The notes under the pieces were generated by a model. The model did no database searches. It saw only the letters and a program-made list of their open reading frames with translations, and had not been told where the DNA came from. Position numbers and translations under genes: made by a program. 64,000 nucleotides of DNA from Ruminococcus flavefaciens ATCC 19208 (lineage in GTDB: Bacteria > Bacillota > Clostridia > Oscillospirales > Ruminococcaceae), in assembly GCF_000518765.1 (NCBI RefSeq), contig NZ_JAEF01000015.1, positions 124,001 to 188,000 of the forward strand. Reading direction: 5' to 3'. Every line of letters starts with the position of its first letter. Position 1 is the first letter of the stretch. Below, in pieces: positions 324 to 5,022 of this stretch.

Positions 324-1775
324 TTATTTGTCTATAACATTAAGTCTTTCTATATTAAGATCTTCCGTACCTGTCATCTGACAGCCTTTTTCTTTTGCAT
401 ATTTTATATATTCGATTATCTCGGGAGTGATAAGCTCACCCGGAGCAAGTATCGGTATTCCCGGAGGATAACACATTACGAATTCACTGCAAACCTCTCC
501 TGCTGTTTCGTCAAGGGGAAGTGAGCGTTTGCTTGAGTAGAATGCCTTTCTCGGAGTTTCCGCAACCACAGGACTGATATACTCCTGTGTCAGCATATTG
601 GCTTCACTTTTTCCGAAGCGGCGTTTTATCTCGGCAAGCGCACTTATAAGGCGTTCGATATCGCGCTTTCTGTCGCCTACAGAGATATAGGCAAGCACAT
701 TTCCGATATCGCCGAATTCTATCTGTATATCGTACTCGTCGCGGAGAAGGTCGTAGACCTCGATACCTGCAAGTCCGATAGGCAGAGTGTAAATACTCAG
801 CTTTGACACATCGAAATCGTATATGCTGTCGCCGTTTATGAGCTCACGTGAATAAGCGTAATATCCGCCTATCTCGTTTATCTCGGAGCGGGCGTATTCA
901 GCCATTTCCACAGTCTGTGCGAATATCTCCCTGCCGCCGAGAGCAAGTCTTTTTCTGGAAATATCCAGACTTGAAAGCAGCAGATAAGAAGCACTTGTAG
1001 TCTGTGTAAGGTTTATTACCTGACGCATATAGTCTGAATTTATATTCTTACCCATGAGCAGGAAAGAGCTCTGTGTAAGGCTTCCGCCCGATTTATGCAT
1101 ACTTACCGAAGCACAGTCAGCTCCCACAGCCATAGCAGTTACGGGAAAGTTCTCACCAAAGTAGAAATGCGTACCGTGAGCCTCGTCCACAAGTACAAGC
1201 ATACCGTGAGCATGAGCAAGCTCGGTTATCTTTTTCAGATCCGAGCATATACCGTAGTATGTGGGATTGTTGACCATTATAGCCTTTGCATCGGGATTCT
1301 CGAGAATAGCCTGCTCCACCTGAGCCACCGACATACCGAGAGCGATGCCCAGCTTGTGGTTTACGTCGGGATTTACATAAACGGGAACAGCTCCCGTAAG
1401 GATTATTGCGTTTATGGCACTTCTGTGGACATTTCGGGGCATGATTATCTTGTCGCCCTCCTTGCAGGCATACATTATCATGCTCTGTACCGCAGAGGTA
1501 GTTCCGCCCACCATAAAGAAGGCATTTGCCGCACCGAAGGCTTCTGCCGCCAGCATTTCCGCGTCCTTGATGACGGAAACAGGGTGACAGAGGTTATCCA
1601 GAGGCTTCATGGAGTTGACATCAACGTTCATGCAGTCCTCCCCGAGAAACTCGGTAAGCTCCATATTTCCCCTGCCGCGCTTATGTCCCGGCACATCGAA
1701 GGGAACGACTCTCATTCTTCTGAATTTTCTCAGAGCCTCATATATCGGAGCATTTACTTGGGAAAGCTCAGCCAT
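324..1775 (-). CDS. speA: Orn/Lys/Arg decarboxylase family protein, probably biosynthetic arginine decarboxylase
   Basis: A PLP-dependent decarboxylase of 483 residues, the size of the Bacillus SpeA/YaaO branch (about 480-490) and shorter than inducible enterobacterial enzymes. Visible motifs are the fold-type-I core with LVDEAHGTH near 195-203 (the Asp contacts the PLP ring) and the Schiff-base lysine in SVSMHKSGG (K228). The C-terminal part carries the family's small domain ([12 protein letters not shown]). It should make agmatine from arginine in the cytosol, but lysine or ornithine as substrate cannot be excluded from sequence. Its start overlaps the end of speD by 8 bases, so the two are translationally coupled. 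Together they give the diamine precursor and the aminopropyl donor for spermidine. No spermidine synthase gene is seen here. Confidence 0.88.
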
Positions 1776-2538
1776 TTCCGAACACGTTCCTTCCGCTGAA
1801 AATTTCTATCATCTCCCGCTGGAGCGCATTTGTTATCTCAAGTCTGCGTCTCGGCGGAAGCTCGTTAACATCTGTATTGAACAGATAGTTCTGAAGATCG
1901 AGCTCCTTTATAAGCATCTTTGTGTGGAACATATTTGCCTGATAGACATTTATATCCACAGCATCGTATTTATCAAGCACCTTAGCGTCGATATAGTTCT
2001 GTATGGAAGTTATATCGTGGTCGATAAAGAGCTTTTCACCGTCAAGGTTACGCGTAAAGCCTCTTACTCTGTAATCCATAGTGATGATATCCGAATCAAA
2101 GCTGCCGATAAGATAATCCAGTGCGGTAAGAGGTGTTATCTTGCCGCAGGTAGCAACATCTATATCAACACGGAATGTAGCGATAGAAGTATCGGGGTGA
2201 AATTCGGGATAGGTATGAACAGTGACATGGCTCTTGTCAAGATGTGCCACAGTCTCATTACCGCCTACAGGTATCATGGTATCATCGGCAATAAGGAAAG
2301 TAGCCGATGCGCCCTGAGGGTCATAGTCCTGACGGGATACGCTGAGCACCTGTGCTCCTATCATCTCAGTAACATGGGTCATTATGTCCGTTATACGCTC
2401 AGAGTTGTACTGCTCATCAACATAAGCGATATACTCCTGCTGTGAGCGGGCTGTCTTTGCATAACAGACATCATATATATTAAAGCTAAGCGACTTTGTA
2501 AGGTTGTTGAACCCATAAAGCTTCAGTTTATTCTCCAT
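1768..2538 (-). CDS. speD: S-adenosylmethionine decarboxylase proenzyme
   Basis: This 256-residue protein is the longer, E. coli-type SpeD rather than the roughly 125-residue Bacillus/archaeal form. The autocatalytic cleavage site is visible in [15 protein letters not shown]103 after K102 would become the pyruvoyl group, giving a short beta and a longer alpha chain. Downstream stretches such as [16 protein letters not shown] and [10 protein letters not shown] agree with the family. It makes decarboxylated AdoMet, the aminopropyl donor of spermidine synthesis. AAAGGTGTGG precedes the ATG at 2538. It is the first gene of the speD-speA pair and starts 18 bases after the T-run of a strong terminator hairpin, so transcription either reads through that hairpin or starts after it. 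This makes regulation by attenuation possible but unproved. Confidence 0.93.
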
Positions 2539-2555
2539 AAAACCACACCTTTAAA

Positions 2556-2597
2556 CAAAAAATGCACACAAAAGACCTTACCAGCCATTGTGTGCAT
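2556..2597 (-). terminator. Intrinsic terminator between the structured RNA and speD
   Basis: On the minus strand the 10-bp perfect stem 2597-2588 / 2571-2562 (ATGCACACAA and its complement) is followed directly by TTTTTTGTTT. It is a textbook Rho-independent terminator just upstream of the speD ribosome site. It either ends an independent RNA or works as an attenuator for speD. Confidence 0.85.
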
Positions 2598-2863
2598 GAA
2601 ATATCTTCGCGGTGCGCAGAAACTTCATTTACGGTTTCAGAGTCTATACAAGCAAGTACTACCTTTTACTACTCTTATTGACCTTTCACAAGCTGATGAG
2701 AACTTATAAAAACTTTATCGACGTACAGTCGAATCAATAAGGCAACAGAAGTTGCCAGCCGAAAAATCGGCGGTCGGCATTTGACCCGGCTGTCCGTATG
2801 GCCTCGACTCCAAAAAGGAGTGGTCAATAGTCTTGCTCCGAAACCTAAGCTTCTTTTGCAATT
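2557..2863 (-). ncRNA. Structured RNA of unassigned class upstream of speD
   Basis: About 300 nt lie between a near-consensus promoter (2870-2898) and the terminator at 2556-2597, with no plausible gene on the minus strand. Two long-range helices close a multibranched fold: 2837-2832 with 2656-2651 (AGCAAG/CTTGCT), and 2829-2822 with 2683-2676 (TATTGACC/GGTCAATA). Inside are local hairpins CTCC-TTTTT-GGAG, GCCGA-TTTT-TCGGC, GGCAAC-TTCT-GTTGCC and TCGAC-TGTA-GTCGA, and GAAAC..GTTTC lies 3' of the closed domain. ACCGCGAAG at 2613-2605, just before the terminator, recalls the T-box core, but no stem I or specifier was recognised. It may be a free-standing RNA or a cis leader of speD. I could not place it in a known family. 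Confidence 0.6.
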
Positions 2864-2869
2864 CAGTTT

Positions 2870-2898
2870 ATTTTATCATATTTTCATGTTTTTGTCAA
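2870..2898 (-). promoter_or_regulatory. Promoter of the structured RNA
   Basis: On the minus strand TTGACA (2898-2893) is separated by 17 bases from TAAAAT (2875-2870), one mismatch from the sigma-A consensus. The predicted transcription start is near 2863, about 25 bases before the first long-range helix. Confidence 0.75.
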
Positions 2899-3111: not shown

Positions 3112-5022
3112 TCAGTCCTCGCGCAGCTTTCTTCGCTTCTGCTTATCCTCATACATTTTTGCGTCAGCTTTGCTGATATATCCGTCGATATTCGAGCCCT
3201 TTTCAGGGACACCGCAGAATGCGCCGAGACTCGCCTCTACCTTATAGGGCTTGCCTGATGCTTTATTATATCTTTTTAAATAGCTGCGTATGTAACCAAA
3301 GTACTTTTCCGCACTCTCTTCCGAATAATCTCCGCAGCCTATAAGGGCGTACTCATCTCCGCCTATTCTCGCGCATACCTCATTCATTCCGCAGCAGGAC
3401 TGCAATGCATTAGCAACAACGATGATAGCGTTATCACCCTCAATATGGCCGTAATTGTCATTTATCATTTTCAGACGGTCAAGGTCAGCGATGATAACAA
3501 AAAATATCTCACCTTCCTCGCAGGCTTTTCGGAATAGACCTTCCGCCATTCGCTTTAATCCCTTGCGGTTGTATATTCCCGTGAGGGTATCACGGATAGA
3601 GTTCATGAAAATACGCTGATTGATACTTGTGAGCTTTGTACGGACGCGGAGATATTCAAGTGCAAGACCTATATTCCTGTTCCATTCCGCAAATACCTTG
3701 CTCTCGGCATTGCGTATATCATCAAATCTGAATATCGAATAACCAAAACATCTGTCCATATAATGCAGAGGAAGCAGGAAAAATACCGACGGACCTTCGC
3801 AGTATTCGTCCATGAAATCGGGGATTATATCTGCCGATCTGAAGTCGCGCCCTATGAACTCAGTCTGCCTTCTTGTGTATATCATCTTGGCTTCCATTAT
3901 ATCTGCATAGCCTTCACGTATATAATCATCGTCTTTTTCATTCTCAACATTGTCCCAGTTGCGGCAAAGACAGAGCATATAGGTATCAAGACCTTTTATG
4001 GTATATATATATCCGTTAAGCCTGCGCAGCAGACTGTCAAGGTTTTCTTCCTCCATAAGTCCGTCCAGCATACAGCTCTTTGTATAATAGTCATCATAGC
4101 GCTTTATCCTGTTACTGAATGCCTCGCCGACGTTGACGCTGTACAGTGTATTGCTGCCGCAGCCGCATGAACGTGCAAGAATAAGCCTGCCGCGCTCCAG
4201 TGTTTCAAGAGGTTCAGCGTCTTCGCCTGTTATCTTCTTATGAAGTATACATACCGCTCTCGCGCCCATTCGTATATTTTCGGGACACAAAGTAGATATG
4301 GAGGGTATCTCCAGTACAGCCTTATTAGAGCCGTCATAGCCCGATATCCTGAAGTCCTCGGGTATCCTGTAGCCGCCCTTTACCATTGAGTTGCAAAGGC
4401 TTCTTGCCATATCGTCATTTGCACACACAACAGCATCGGGAATAGGTCTTTCGCCCGTAATGAACTGCTTTGCCAGACGCTGCGAAACTATTTTCCAGAA
4501 GTCGCCGTAAATAATATCATCTTCGGCTATTTCAAGTCCGTGCTTCTTCATTGAGCGTTTATATCCCTCAAGTCTTGACATTGCAGGAGGGCTTCCCTCA
4601 GGACCTGTAAGACACATTATCTTCTTGCAGCCGTGAGCTTCTATAAAATGGTCTGTCATCTGCTCGAAAAGCTCAGTATCCTCAGCATATAGGCTGTCGC
4701 AGAAATCAAAATCGTGATCGAGAGCTACTACAGGTATTCCCCAATGTGAAAATACCTTTACGAATTTATCCACAAGATTCTGGCTGGCAAGATTTCCCGC
4801 AAGGAGTATAACTCCGTCGATAACATCGGCTTTTATAAGTGAGAAGATATTCTCCTCGCCCTGCTGTATAAGTCCGCCGCTGTCAAGGTTAAAAGCCATA
4901 AGAAATGTGAGCACATCATATCCGAGAGATCTGCACTGCTCGGAAATGCCGATAAATATGCGATTCATGTAGCTGTTGAAAACATCGGCTGCGATGACTG
5001 CTATAGTCTTGCGTTTCTTCAC
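3112..5022 (-). CDS. LacI-type ligand-binding domain fused to an active-looking GGDEF domain
   Basis: The first ~300 residues of this 636-residue protein are a periplasmic-binding-protein/LacI-like sensor (GVILLAGNLASQ, ALDHDFDFCDS, VVCANDDMARSL, FRISGYDGS) with no N-terminal helix-turn-helix and no signal peptide, so it is probably cytoplasmic. A middle segment (~310-465) links to a C-terminal GGDEF domain (~475-630) with RIGGDEY intact and the metal-binding IIADLDRLKMIND stretch. The RxxD inhibitory site is absent (GMNE at that place). It should make cyclic di-GMP in response to a small ligand, possibly a sugar, but the ligand is unknown. The start is GTG at 5022, set by GGGGGA 6-7 bases upstream. 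It has its own promoter and terminator. A paralogue with a degenerate GGDEF and an AraC output lies at 27415-29580. Confidence 0.85.
   Translation of the reverse strand: MKKRKTIAVIAADVFNSYMNRIFIGISEQCRSLGYDVLTFLMAFNLDSGGLIQQGEENIFSLIKADVIDGVILLAGNLASQNLVDKFVKVFSHWGIPVVALDHDFDFCDSLYAEDTELFEQMTDHFIEAHGCKKIMCLTGPEGSPPAMSRLEGYKRSMKKHGLEIAEDDIIYGDFWKIVSQRLAKQFITGERPIPDAVVCANDDMARSLCNSMVKGGYRIPEDFRISGYDGSNKAVLEIPSISTLCPENIRMGARAVCILHKKITGEDAEPLETLERGRLILARSCGCGSNTLYSVNVGEAFSNRIKRYDDYYTKSCMLDGLMEEENLDSLLRRLNGYIYTIKGLDTYMLCLCRNWDNVENEKDDDYIREGYADIMEAKMIYTRRQTEFIGRDFRSADIIPDFMDEYCEGPSVFFLLPLHYMDRCFGYSIFRFDDIRNAESKVFAEWNRNIGLALEYLRVRTKLTSINQRIFMNSIRDTLTGIYNRKGLKRMAEGLFRKACEEGEIFFVIIADLDRLKMINDNYGHIEGDNAIIVVANALQSCCGMNEVCARIGGDEYALIGCGDYSEESAEKYFGYIRSYLKRYNKASGKPYKVEASLGAFCGVPEKGSNIDGYISKADAKMYEDKQKRRKLRED

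Follow-up and report, generated by a model that had tools for sequence, protein, structure and literature searches.

A two-module leader RNA upstream of polyamine genes in Bacillota: a probable polyamine-sensing transcription attenuator

The speD gene in the window analysed here (the whole 64,000-nt stretch of DNA from Ruminococcus flavefaciens ATCC 19208) is preceded by a structured leader RNA, and RNAs of the same kind stand before polyamine genes in Ruminococcus, other gut Clostridia, Faecalibacterium, Blautia, Paenibacillus, Bacillus, and Streptococcus-like genomes. Comparison of these loci suggests that the RNA is probably a cis-acting transcription attenuator, most likely a polyamine-sensing riboswitch that would turn polyamine synthesis or uptake off. 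We see an even chance that it defines a class of polyamine riboswitches that is widespread in Bacillota and had gone unrecognised: an RNA of ~200–300 nt in two modules, with its putative sensing core outside the piece held in Rfam, one conserved antiterminator for both spermidine routes and for import, and no structural relation to the rare spermidine riboswitch derived from SAM-I.

The existence of polyamine riboswitches has long been anticipated, and the polyamine supply of the gut is of wide interest; to our knowledge, polyamine control in these gut bacteria is poorly known. If the proposal is true, it would explain how one sensor can serve bacteria with different spermidine pathways, and it would offer a testable switch with natural deletion variants. 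The Rfam entry RF02440 apparently represents no more than a quarter of the RNA, and a dispensable one. The 2023 paper on a spermidine class considered earlier evidence for polyamine riboswitches unconvincing and said of further classes that they "remain to be discovered" (PMC10853860).

The Leader in the Window

The first-pass annotation had placed a structured RNA with its own promoter and terminator at 2557..2898, before speD, and it was right on each of these points. On the minus strand this segment holds a near-consensus promoter, a strongly folded leader of ~308 nt, and an intrinsic terminator just 5' of speD (Table 1); we infer a start site near 2864 (−). The leader folds at −107.7 kcal/mol against −78.8 ± 5.1 kcal/mol for shuffled sequences (z −5.70, 0/100 shuffles as good). 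Five promoter-like sites were found in the 2.5 kb scanned, where 5.7 are expected by chance, and the other four have 9/12 consensus letters. A simple scan for terminator hairpins (loops ≤8) found three where 1.8 are expected, two of them at other places of the leader on the minus strand and the third on the plus strand; the 2596–2563 terminator was not among them. The speA-type gene and speD overlap by 8 nt. The genome has a single copy of the RNA, both by RF02440 and by a core model, R2 (91.9 bits); the next R2 match has 16.2 bits (E 2.3), and there are no others.

By eye, the protein encoded by the gene upstream, at 3112–5022 (−), combines a periplasmic-binding-like part (LacI-type sensor) with a C-terminal GGDEF-like domain; what resembles the terminator of that gene, an inverted repeat with T's behind it, lies at about 2990–2930.

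Table 1. Features of the window locus, all on the minus strand.
Feature	Position	Strand	Remarks
speA-type Orn/Lys/Arg decarboxylase family protein	324..1775	−	no NCBIfam model above cut-off among those shown
speD, S-adenosylmethionine decarboxylase	1768..2538	−	TIGR03331, 398 bits, cut-off 256; ATG at 2538
SD-like AAAGGTGTGG 5' of speD	2552–2543	−
Intrinsic terminator	2557..2596	−	hairpin 2596–2563 (−15.7 kcal/mol), T-tract 2562–2557
Whole leader RNA to end of T-tract	2557..2864	−	308 nt from assumed start
Candidate antiterminator	2582..2695	−	CAGCUUGUG 2695–2687 (P6 3' side) with CACAA 2592–2588 and GCUG 2585–2582 (terminator 5' arm)
P0, 3' strand	2633..2657	−
P9 hairpin, GAGUAGUAA..UUGCUUGUAUAGACUC	2640..2674	−	3' strand common to P0
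P4, long-range	2675..2740	−	UUAUUGA 2740–2734 with UCAAUAA 2681–2675; nearly invariant in A1
P6	2684..2711	−	UUUUAUAAGU 2711–2702 with GCUUGUGAAA 2693–2684; 97.9% paired, no double changes
P5 hairpin	2718..2732	−	UCGAC/GUCGA (UUGAG/CUCAA elsewhere); double-sided changes at 4/5 pairs
P3 hairpin, GGCAACUUCUGUUGCC	2741..2756	−	double-sided changes at all 5 counted pairs
Extra hairpin between RF02440 module and P3	2758..2772	−	by eye
RF02440 match	2826–2774	−	53 nt
Candidate pseudoknot	2775..2796	−	loop CGG 2796–2794 with CCG 2777–2775; 99.2% paired, no double changes
P1	2781..2827	−	UUGACC 2827–2822 with GGUCAA 2786–2781; closing pair U-A/G-C/C-G in relatives
P2 hairpin, GGC-CAUACGGACA-GCC	2788..2803	−	local hairpin, 10-nt loop
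P1a hairpin	2807..2821	−	ACUCC/GGAGU; double-sided changes at 5/5 pairs
P0, 5' strand	2831..2845	−	GGUUUCGGAG, then CAAGA; long-range closing helix
Sigma-70 promoter	2870..2898	−	TTGACA-17-TAAAAT, TG before −10; 11/12 consensus letters

Rfam Coverage and Earlier Descriptions

The sole Rfam match at the gathering threshold across the whole window is RF02440, "Streptococcus sRNA SpF59 (ldcC RNA)" (70.3 bits, gathering 37.2), a family of type sRNA whose model describes a single hairpin over 54 positions. At E values up to 5, positions 2500–2950 match no T-box or SAM family and nothing credible besides RF02440; an isrK match on the opposite strand (14.5 bits, gathering 50) was set aside as not credible. 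The Rfam scan, on which the first-pass annotation had made the novelty of its suggested ncRNA class depend, thus leaves that suggestion half standing: a known family covers 53 nt, and about three quarters of the conserved RNA lie outside it. Conservation runs ~150 nt further downstream, so RF02440 is refuted as the whole of the conserved unit, and judged by the alignments described below it misses about three quarters of a conserved RNA of ~200 nt (172–245 nt from P1 to P9 in aligned sequences holding both ends).

A search of the literature within reach, which left Weinberg et al. 2017 (224 motifs) outside, found "ldcC RNA", SpF59, and RF02440 nowhere treated as a polyamine element and found no "speA motif" or "speD motif"; only lists of pneumococcal sRNAs touch on the RNA of RF02440. 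Of six polyamine terms looked for, the main text of PMC11109978 (50 genomes) contained none. The Rfam alias "ldcC RNA" may hint at an earlier description of at least the 5' module.

The pneumococcal lists hold what is probably a counterpart. SN20 of strain TIGR4, at 869478–869791 on the plus strand (318 nt as printed), has a promoter and a rho-independent terminator and lies between SP0915 (−) and SP0916 (+); an FMN switch was suggested for it from a common motif (PMC2887815). F59, of 82 nt, lies at the same place (PMC3395615), and where a review tabulates pathogenesis profiles, F59/srn235/SN20 comes under "Lung" (PMC4387999). The title of PMC7531197 names SP_0916 as an arginine decarboxylase. 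From its position and size, and from the Streptococcus-like loci L191, L192, and L222, SN20 is probably the same full-length RNA.

Distribution and Modular Composition

At E values up to 0.001, RF02440 matches 35 of 60 genomes of the genus and 69 of 295 of the order, 18 of 398 in a phylum sample, 31 of 398 in the class of a Paenibacillus-like genome, and 7 of 78 in a Streptococcus-like genus. The labels "Paenibacillus-like" and "Streptococcus-like" are inferred from sequence likeness and gene order, the latter leaning on what we take to be the pneumococcal gene order. A DNA pattern applied to named genomes matched at least 118 stretches, of which 80 are named among the matches listed. These listed matches include Paenibacillus, Bacillus, Neobacillus, Acetobacterium, Acidaminococcus, Phascolarctobacterium, Faecalibacterium, Blautia, Flavonifractor, Ruminococcus flavefaciens, and one MAG labelled Spirochaetes. 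One locus labelled Bacteroides (L085) proved to be a chance match to the pattern without the rest of the RNA, and was excluded from later counts.

A longer model, R1 (P1 to P4), finds the RNA in 47 of the 60 genus genomes, compared with 35 for RF02440. All 12 extra loci (L280–L291) precede speD and none has an RF02440 match; by eye, other hairpins replace P1–P2 in them while P3–P9 remain. The core-only model R2 adds further loci beyond R1. Altogether 23 loci, found only with R1 or R2, have a core and no RF02440 match, and 22 of these are in polyamine context; a remnant containing CGGAC is present in three (L327, L333, L335) and none is visible in the other 20. Since loci exist with the core and without an RF02440 match, RF02440 is a detachable 5' accessory module; what stays constant is the core.

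Some loci depart from the common form. Three very short ones (L328–L330) keep chiefly CUUGUGAA..AAUAAGAGUAGUAAAAG..GACUC; the usual 5' strands of P4 and P6 are missing, and the segment with the 3' strands of P6 and P4 and with P9 is retained, still upstream of speD. They may hold a minimal functional unit. One genus genome (G006) has two copies of the RNA (L224 and L225), each before a speD-speA pair with speD identities to the window of 91.8% and 98.0%, respectively; contamination of 6% is a possible cause. A mobile or phage origin was rejected: with one Bacillus-type query (L127), 50,697 phage records gave nothing, and the single match among 72,556 plasmid records was a Paenibacillus replicon of 2.7 Mb.

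Gene Context

We compared downstream ORFs with four reference proteins, the SpeD and SpeA of the window, a carboxyspermidine-dehydrogenase-like (CASDH-like) protein from L034, and PotA from L066; the tally sought only these four. Of 239 loci, 230 have enough downstream sequence and nine are too short to classify. The first reference match is speD in 112, speA in 52, the CASDH-like gene in 50, potA in 15, and none in one, so that a polyamine gene follows on the same strand in 229/230 loci (165/166 after removal of near-duplicates). The distance from anchor to gene is 64–629 nt (median 280), and an ORF of at least 100 aa intervenes in one locus only (L121). The sole exception in context, L333 (G970), is a degenerate copy with a remnant of the RF02440 module, and its next genes are unlike the four references. 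Two loci that the anchor missed (L043 and L045) both precede speD and are not among the 230.

The lowest identities to the references are 60.5% for speD, 67.1% for speA, 78.4% for the CASDH-like protein, and 51.5% for potA, with 4 of the 15 PotA calls at 51–55% identity. The PotA of L050, the sole one compared with NCBIfam, is above curated cut-offs (NF043075, TIGR01187). We call the CASDH-like protein only "like" because it scores 385 against NF043000, under the cut-off of 800. In the loci looked at, nspC stands beside CASDH, in the operons CASDH-nspC (L220, L221), speA-speE-CASDH-nspC-aguA (L222), and speD-speA-speE-speB-CASDH-nspC (L223). The RNA therefore stands before two chemically unrelated spermidine routes, through decarboxylated AdoMet and through carboxyspermidine, and before a spermidine/putrescine importer.

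Helices and Covariation

The helix names P0–P9 are our own. Three alignments were built, A1 with 81 of 92 selected sequences, A2 with 46 of 47, and A3 with 55 of 61. The conservation in relatives that the first-pass annotation had looked to is strong. In A1, 92.6% of cells are paired and there are 248 double-sided changes, compared with 77.6 ± 7.6 in shuffles (0/500); further pair types number 78 against 64.9 ± 2.6, and the covariation score is 0.166 against 0.087 in shuffles and 0.026–0.052 in slid controls. A weaker measure is how many pairs show a double change: 23, only a modest excess over the shuffles (18.2 ± 1.9, 6/500), and the slid control at −1 also gives 23. The double changes are located in P1, P1a, P2, P3, P5, P7, and P8, with none in P4, P6, or P9. 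P7 and P8, which are paired in 78.9% and 64.6% of A1 cells, are carried on P6 (UUUUAUAAGU/ACUUGUGAAA) where present; the window is without both. In L137 and L327, compensation within P4 can be seen by eye.

The two long-range helices of the first-pass annotation fared differently. One corresponds to P0, which is backed by covariation: its own strands pair at −14.2 kcal/mol, compared with −11.4 kcal/mol for strands exchanged between the 33 cluster representatives (z −5.1, 0/20000), with 18 of 162 loci lacking anchors and six more mis-anchored loci left out before the test. The second long-range helix of the minimum-energy fold, between the 5' UAUUGACC and the distal GGUCAAUA, is not the conserved one; comparison replaces it by the local P1 (UGACC/GGUCA) and the separate long-range P4 (UUAUUGA/UCAAUAA). 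P0 and P9 have one strand in common and are mutually exclusive.

The first pair of P2 is G-C in 70, A-U in 4, and C-G in 3 of 81 sequences, and the helix is GCC/GGC in two Streptococcus-like loci (L191 and L192). A pseudoknot of this GGC with a downstream GCC was dropped, as the G-C/A-U/C-G variants show a local GGC/GCC hairpin. The candidate CGG/CCG pseudoknot is practically invariant, and hence outside the covariation test. Long insertions in P1a occur in L070 and L029 (Ruminococcus flavefaciens FD-1 and a relative), with the flanking conserved parts intact. By eye, the extra hairpin before P3 is present in Ruminococcus and some potA-type leaders, and other families are without it. On this comparative evidence the architecture is that of a conserved core (P0, P3–P6, P9) with an optional 5' module (RF02440: P1, P1a, P2).

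Terminator and Antiterminator

A terminator hairpin with a T-tract follows the RNA in 133 of 155 loci, and none was found in the other 22. The 5' arm of the terminator tends towards complementarity with a strand made up of the 3' side of P8, the joiner, and the 3' side of P6. In 38 cluster representatives, drawn from 124 usable of the 155 loci (31 without a clear core or terminator were left out), this strand pairs with its own terminator arm at −13.1 kcal/mol, compared with −9.5 kcal/mol for swapped partners (z −8.1, 0/20000). Own arms are on average 2.5 standard deviations better than shuffled own arms, with 29/38 beyond −1.64. Scanned along the leader in 5-nt steps, the signal reaches z −8.0 at the P8/P6 3' strand, and outside its flanks no position falls below −2.42. 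The arm of the window itself ranks 6th of 38 for its core. A cruder first test, with its search interval too wide and some cores mis-anchored, had given a weak result (median rank 0.21, 24% in the best tenth).

In loci collected afterwards the test gives z −3.7 (11/20000; 21 representatives from 48 usable of 53 loci). Their clades are partly those of the first set, a slightly different terminator filter was used, a few terminators are clearly mis-picked inside genes (e.g., L170 and L208), and five of the 53 were dropped. This later set includes a Streptococcus-like pair, UCAUCUU/AGGAUGA, in which both strands are unlike those of other families. Compared across loci in this way, the arrangement looks like a terminator/antiterminator switch. 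In ViennaRNA, the state with P6 and the terminator has −103.9 kcal/mol and the antiterminator state −89.4 kcal/mol, and a transcript ending at the terminator loop still keeps P6. Since equilibrium folding favours the terminated state, either the ON state would be attained kinetically, during transcription, or the energy model fails to capture it.

Proposed Mechanism and Ligand

Three features expected of a riboswitch were looked for. The 5' leader holds a conserved, covarying, aptamer-like structure, the genes behind it have one metabolite in common (229/230 loci), and mutually exclusive structures emerge from sequence comparison, with an ON state that equilibrium folding does not predict. A leader sensing a polyamine, one of several options in the first-pass annotation, is the best reading. 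Two unrelated spermidine routes together with uptake point to a polyamine as the ligand, most likely spermidine, and another polyamine after it; spermidine is favoured because it is the common product of all the associated enzymes. As nearly all members keep the core, we assign the sensor to it.

In the mechanism we propose, binding of a polyamine would stabilise the P4–P6 domain, the 3' strand of P6 would then be unavailable, and the terminator would form and stop transcription before speD (OFF). When polyamine is scarce, the 3' strand of P6 would capture the terminator arm and RNA polymerase would read on (ON). The direction of switching, OFF with polyamine, is presumed from gene function alone.

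AdoMet, another ligand suggested by the first-pass annotation, can be set aside because CASDH-nspC and potA do not involve it, and the RNA precedes both these AdoMet-independent spermidine genes and potA. It is also possible, if improbable, that the ligand is a precursor or relative of spermidine, such as agmatine, putrescine, arginine, or cadaverine. In 52/230 loci the first reference gene is speA, whose product in pneumococcus makes agmatine from arginine, and several such metabolites rise and fall together; against this, CASDH is first in 50/230 loci, which neither AdoMet nor dcAdoMet can explain, nspC follows CASDH in L220 and L221 and the two enzymes catalyse only the step from putrescine to spermidine, and spermidine is the product common to all the enzymes. 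The same attenuator might instead be read by a protein or other trans factor that binds the core and chooses between terminator and antiterminator, in the manner of PyrR or of ribosomal proteins at their own leaders. The extreme conservation of the core sequence, P9 with its internal loop included, would suit such a factor, as would the reduced loci L328–L330, in which the segment that is mainly kept could be a protein site. We nevertheless regard it as unlikely: the ten proteins identified downstream of the RNA in four loci include no regulator, a single protein would need to act across many families whose polyamine pathways differ, and large conserved folds with covarying helices are in general more typical of small-molecule aptamers.

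A trans-acting sRNA, as the Rfam type given to SpF59 implies, would make the site near polyamine genes incidental. A terminated transcript is expected of it and one was seen in pneumococcus (PMC2887815), and F59/srn235/SN20 stands under "Lung" among the pathogenesis profiles (PMC4387999); altered speA expression could also give such a phenotype, the RNA lies directly upstream of the same four gene groups on the same strand in 229/230 loci, and the terminator arm covaries with its own leader, all of which makes this very unlikely. T-box action, AdoMet sensing, and leader-peptide attenuation are together hardly credible. The T-box idea, raised by the first-pass annotation as tRNA sensing, starts from a short ACCGCG 5' of the terminator, but no T-box or SAM family matched and the T-box-like ACCGCGAAG is not conserved; it lies in a variable linker, where L015 keeps ACCGC only and L005 and L008 differ. 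Leader peptides occur at polyamine genes besides odc1. That of odc1 is a uORF (PMC8632094), yet in the core of 207 loci we found no uORF with an SD-like sequence at a conserved position. Short-ORF starts with an SD-like sequence do cluster at offset 210–219 from the anchor in 21 loci, past the core, either within the linker or where the gene begins. Finally, that there is nothing here beyond the known 54-nt element of RF02440 is almost certainly wrong: the match in the window is well above gathering, but the longer-RNA and core models find members that RF02440 misses, among them the 20 core loci without even a visible remnant of it. A polyamine-sensing attenuator remains our preferred explanation.

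Comparison with Known Systems

The riboswitch-like attenuator is a known kind of element, and the architecture of this one matches no Rfam family other than RF02440. The window and most of the collected relatives score above the RF02440 gathering threshold; pneumococcal SN20 (F59, srn235) is alike in size (318 nt), has a promoter and a terminator too, and likewise stands before a polyamine gene, SP0916 (PMC2887815). What is a one-hairpin, 54-nt "sRNA" in RF02440 is here one module of a 200–300-nt leader with a core, helices P0–P9, and a switchable terminator.

T-box leaders likewise make a choice between terminator and antiterminator in a long Bacillota leader; here there is no Rfam T-box match and no conserved T-box sequence, and the targets are not amino-acid genes. 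The odc1 (PMC8632094) and speF (PMC11477304) leaders also belong to polyamine synthesis genes. The odc1 leader incorporates a uORF (PMC8632094) and speF was described from alphaproteobacteria (PMC11477304); Rfam gave no match of speF type at 2500–2950, nor one of odc1 type as far as Rfam covers that leader. A functional parallel is the spermidine riboswitch of Salvail et al. 2023, a SAM-I variant with 13 examples, which has similar gene targets (speE, speB, speD, ldcC) and the OFF-by-termination logic that we propose here (PMC10853860). That RNA keeps the four-stem SAM-I fold, whereas the leader described here matches no SAM family in the same Rfam search, and it was found in far more genomes than the 13 examples given for the 2023 class (PMC10853860).
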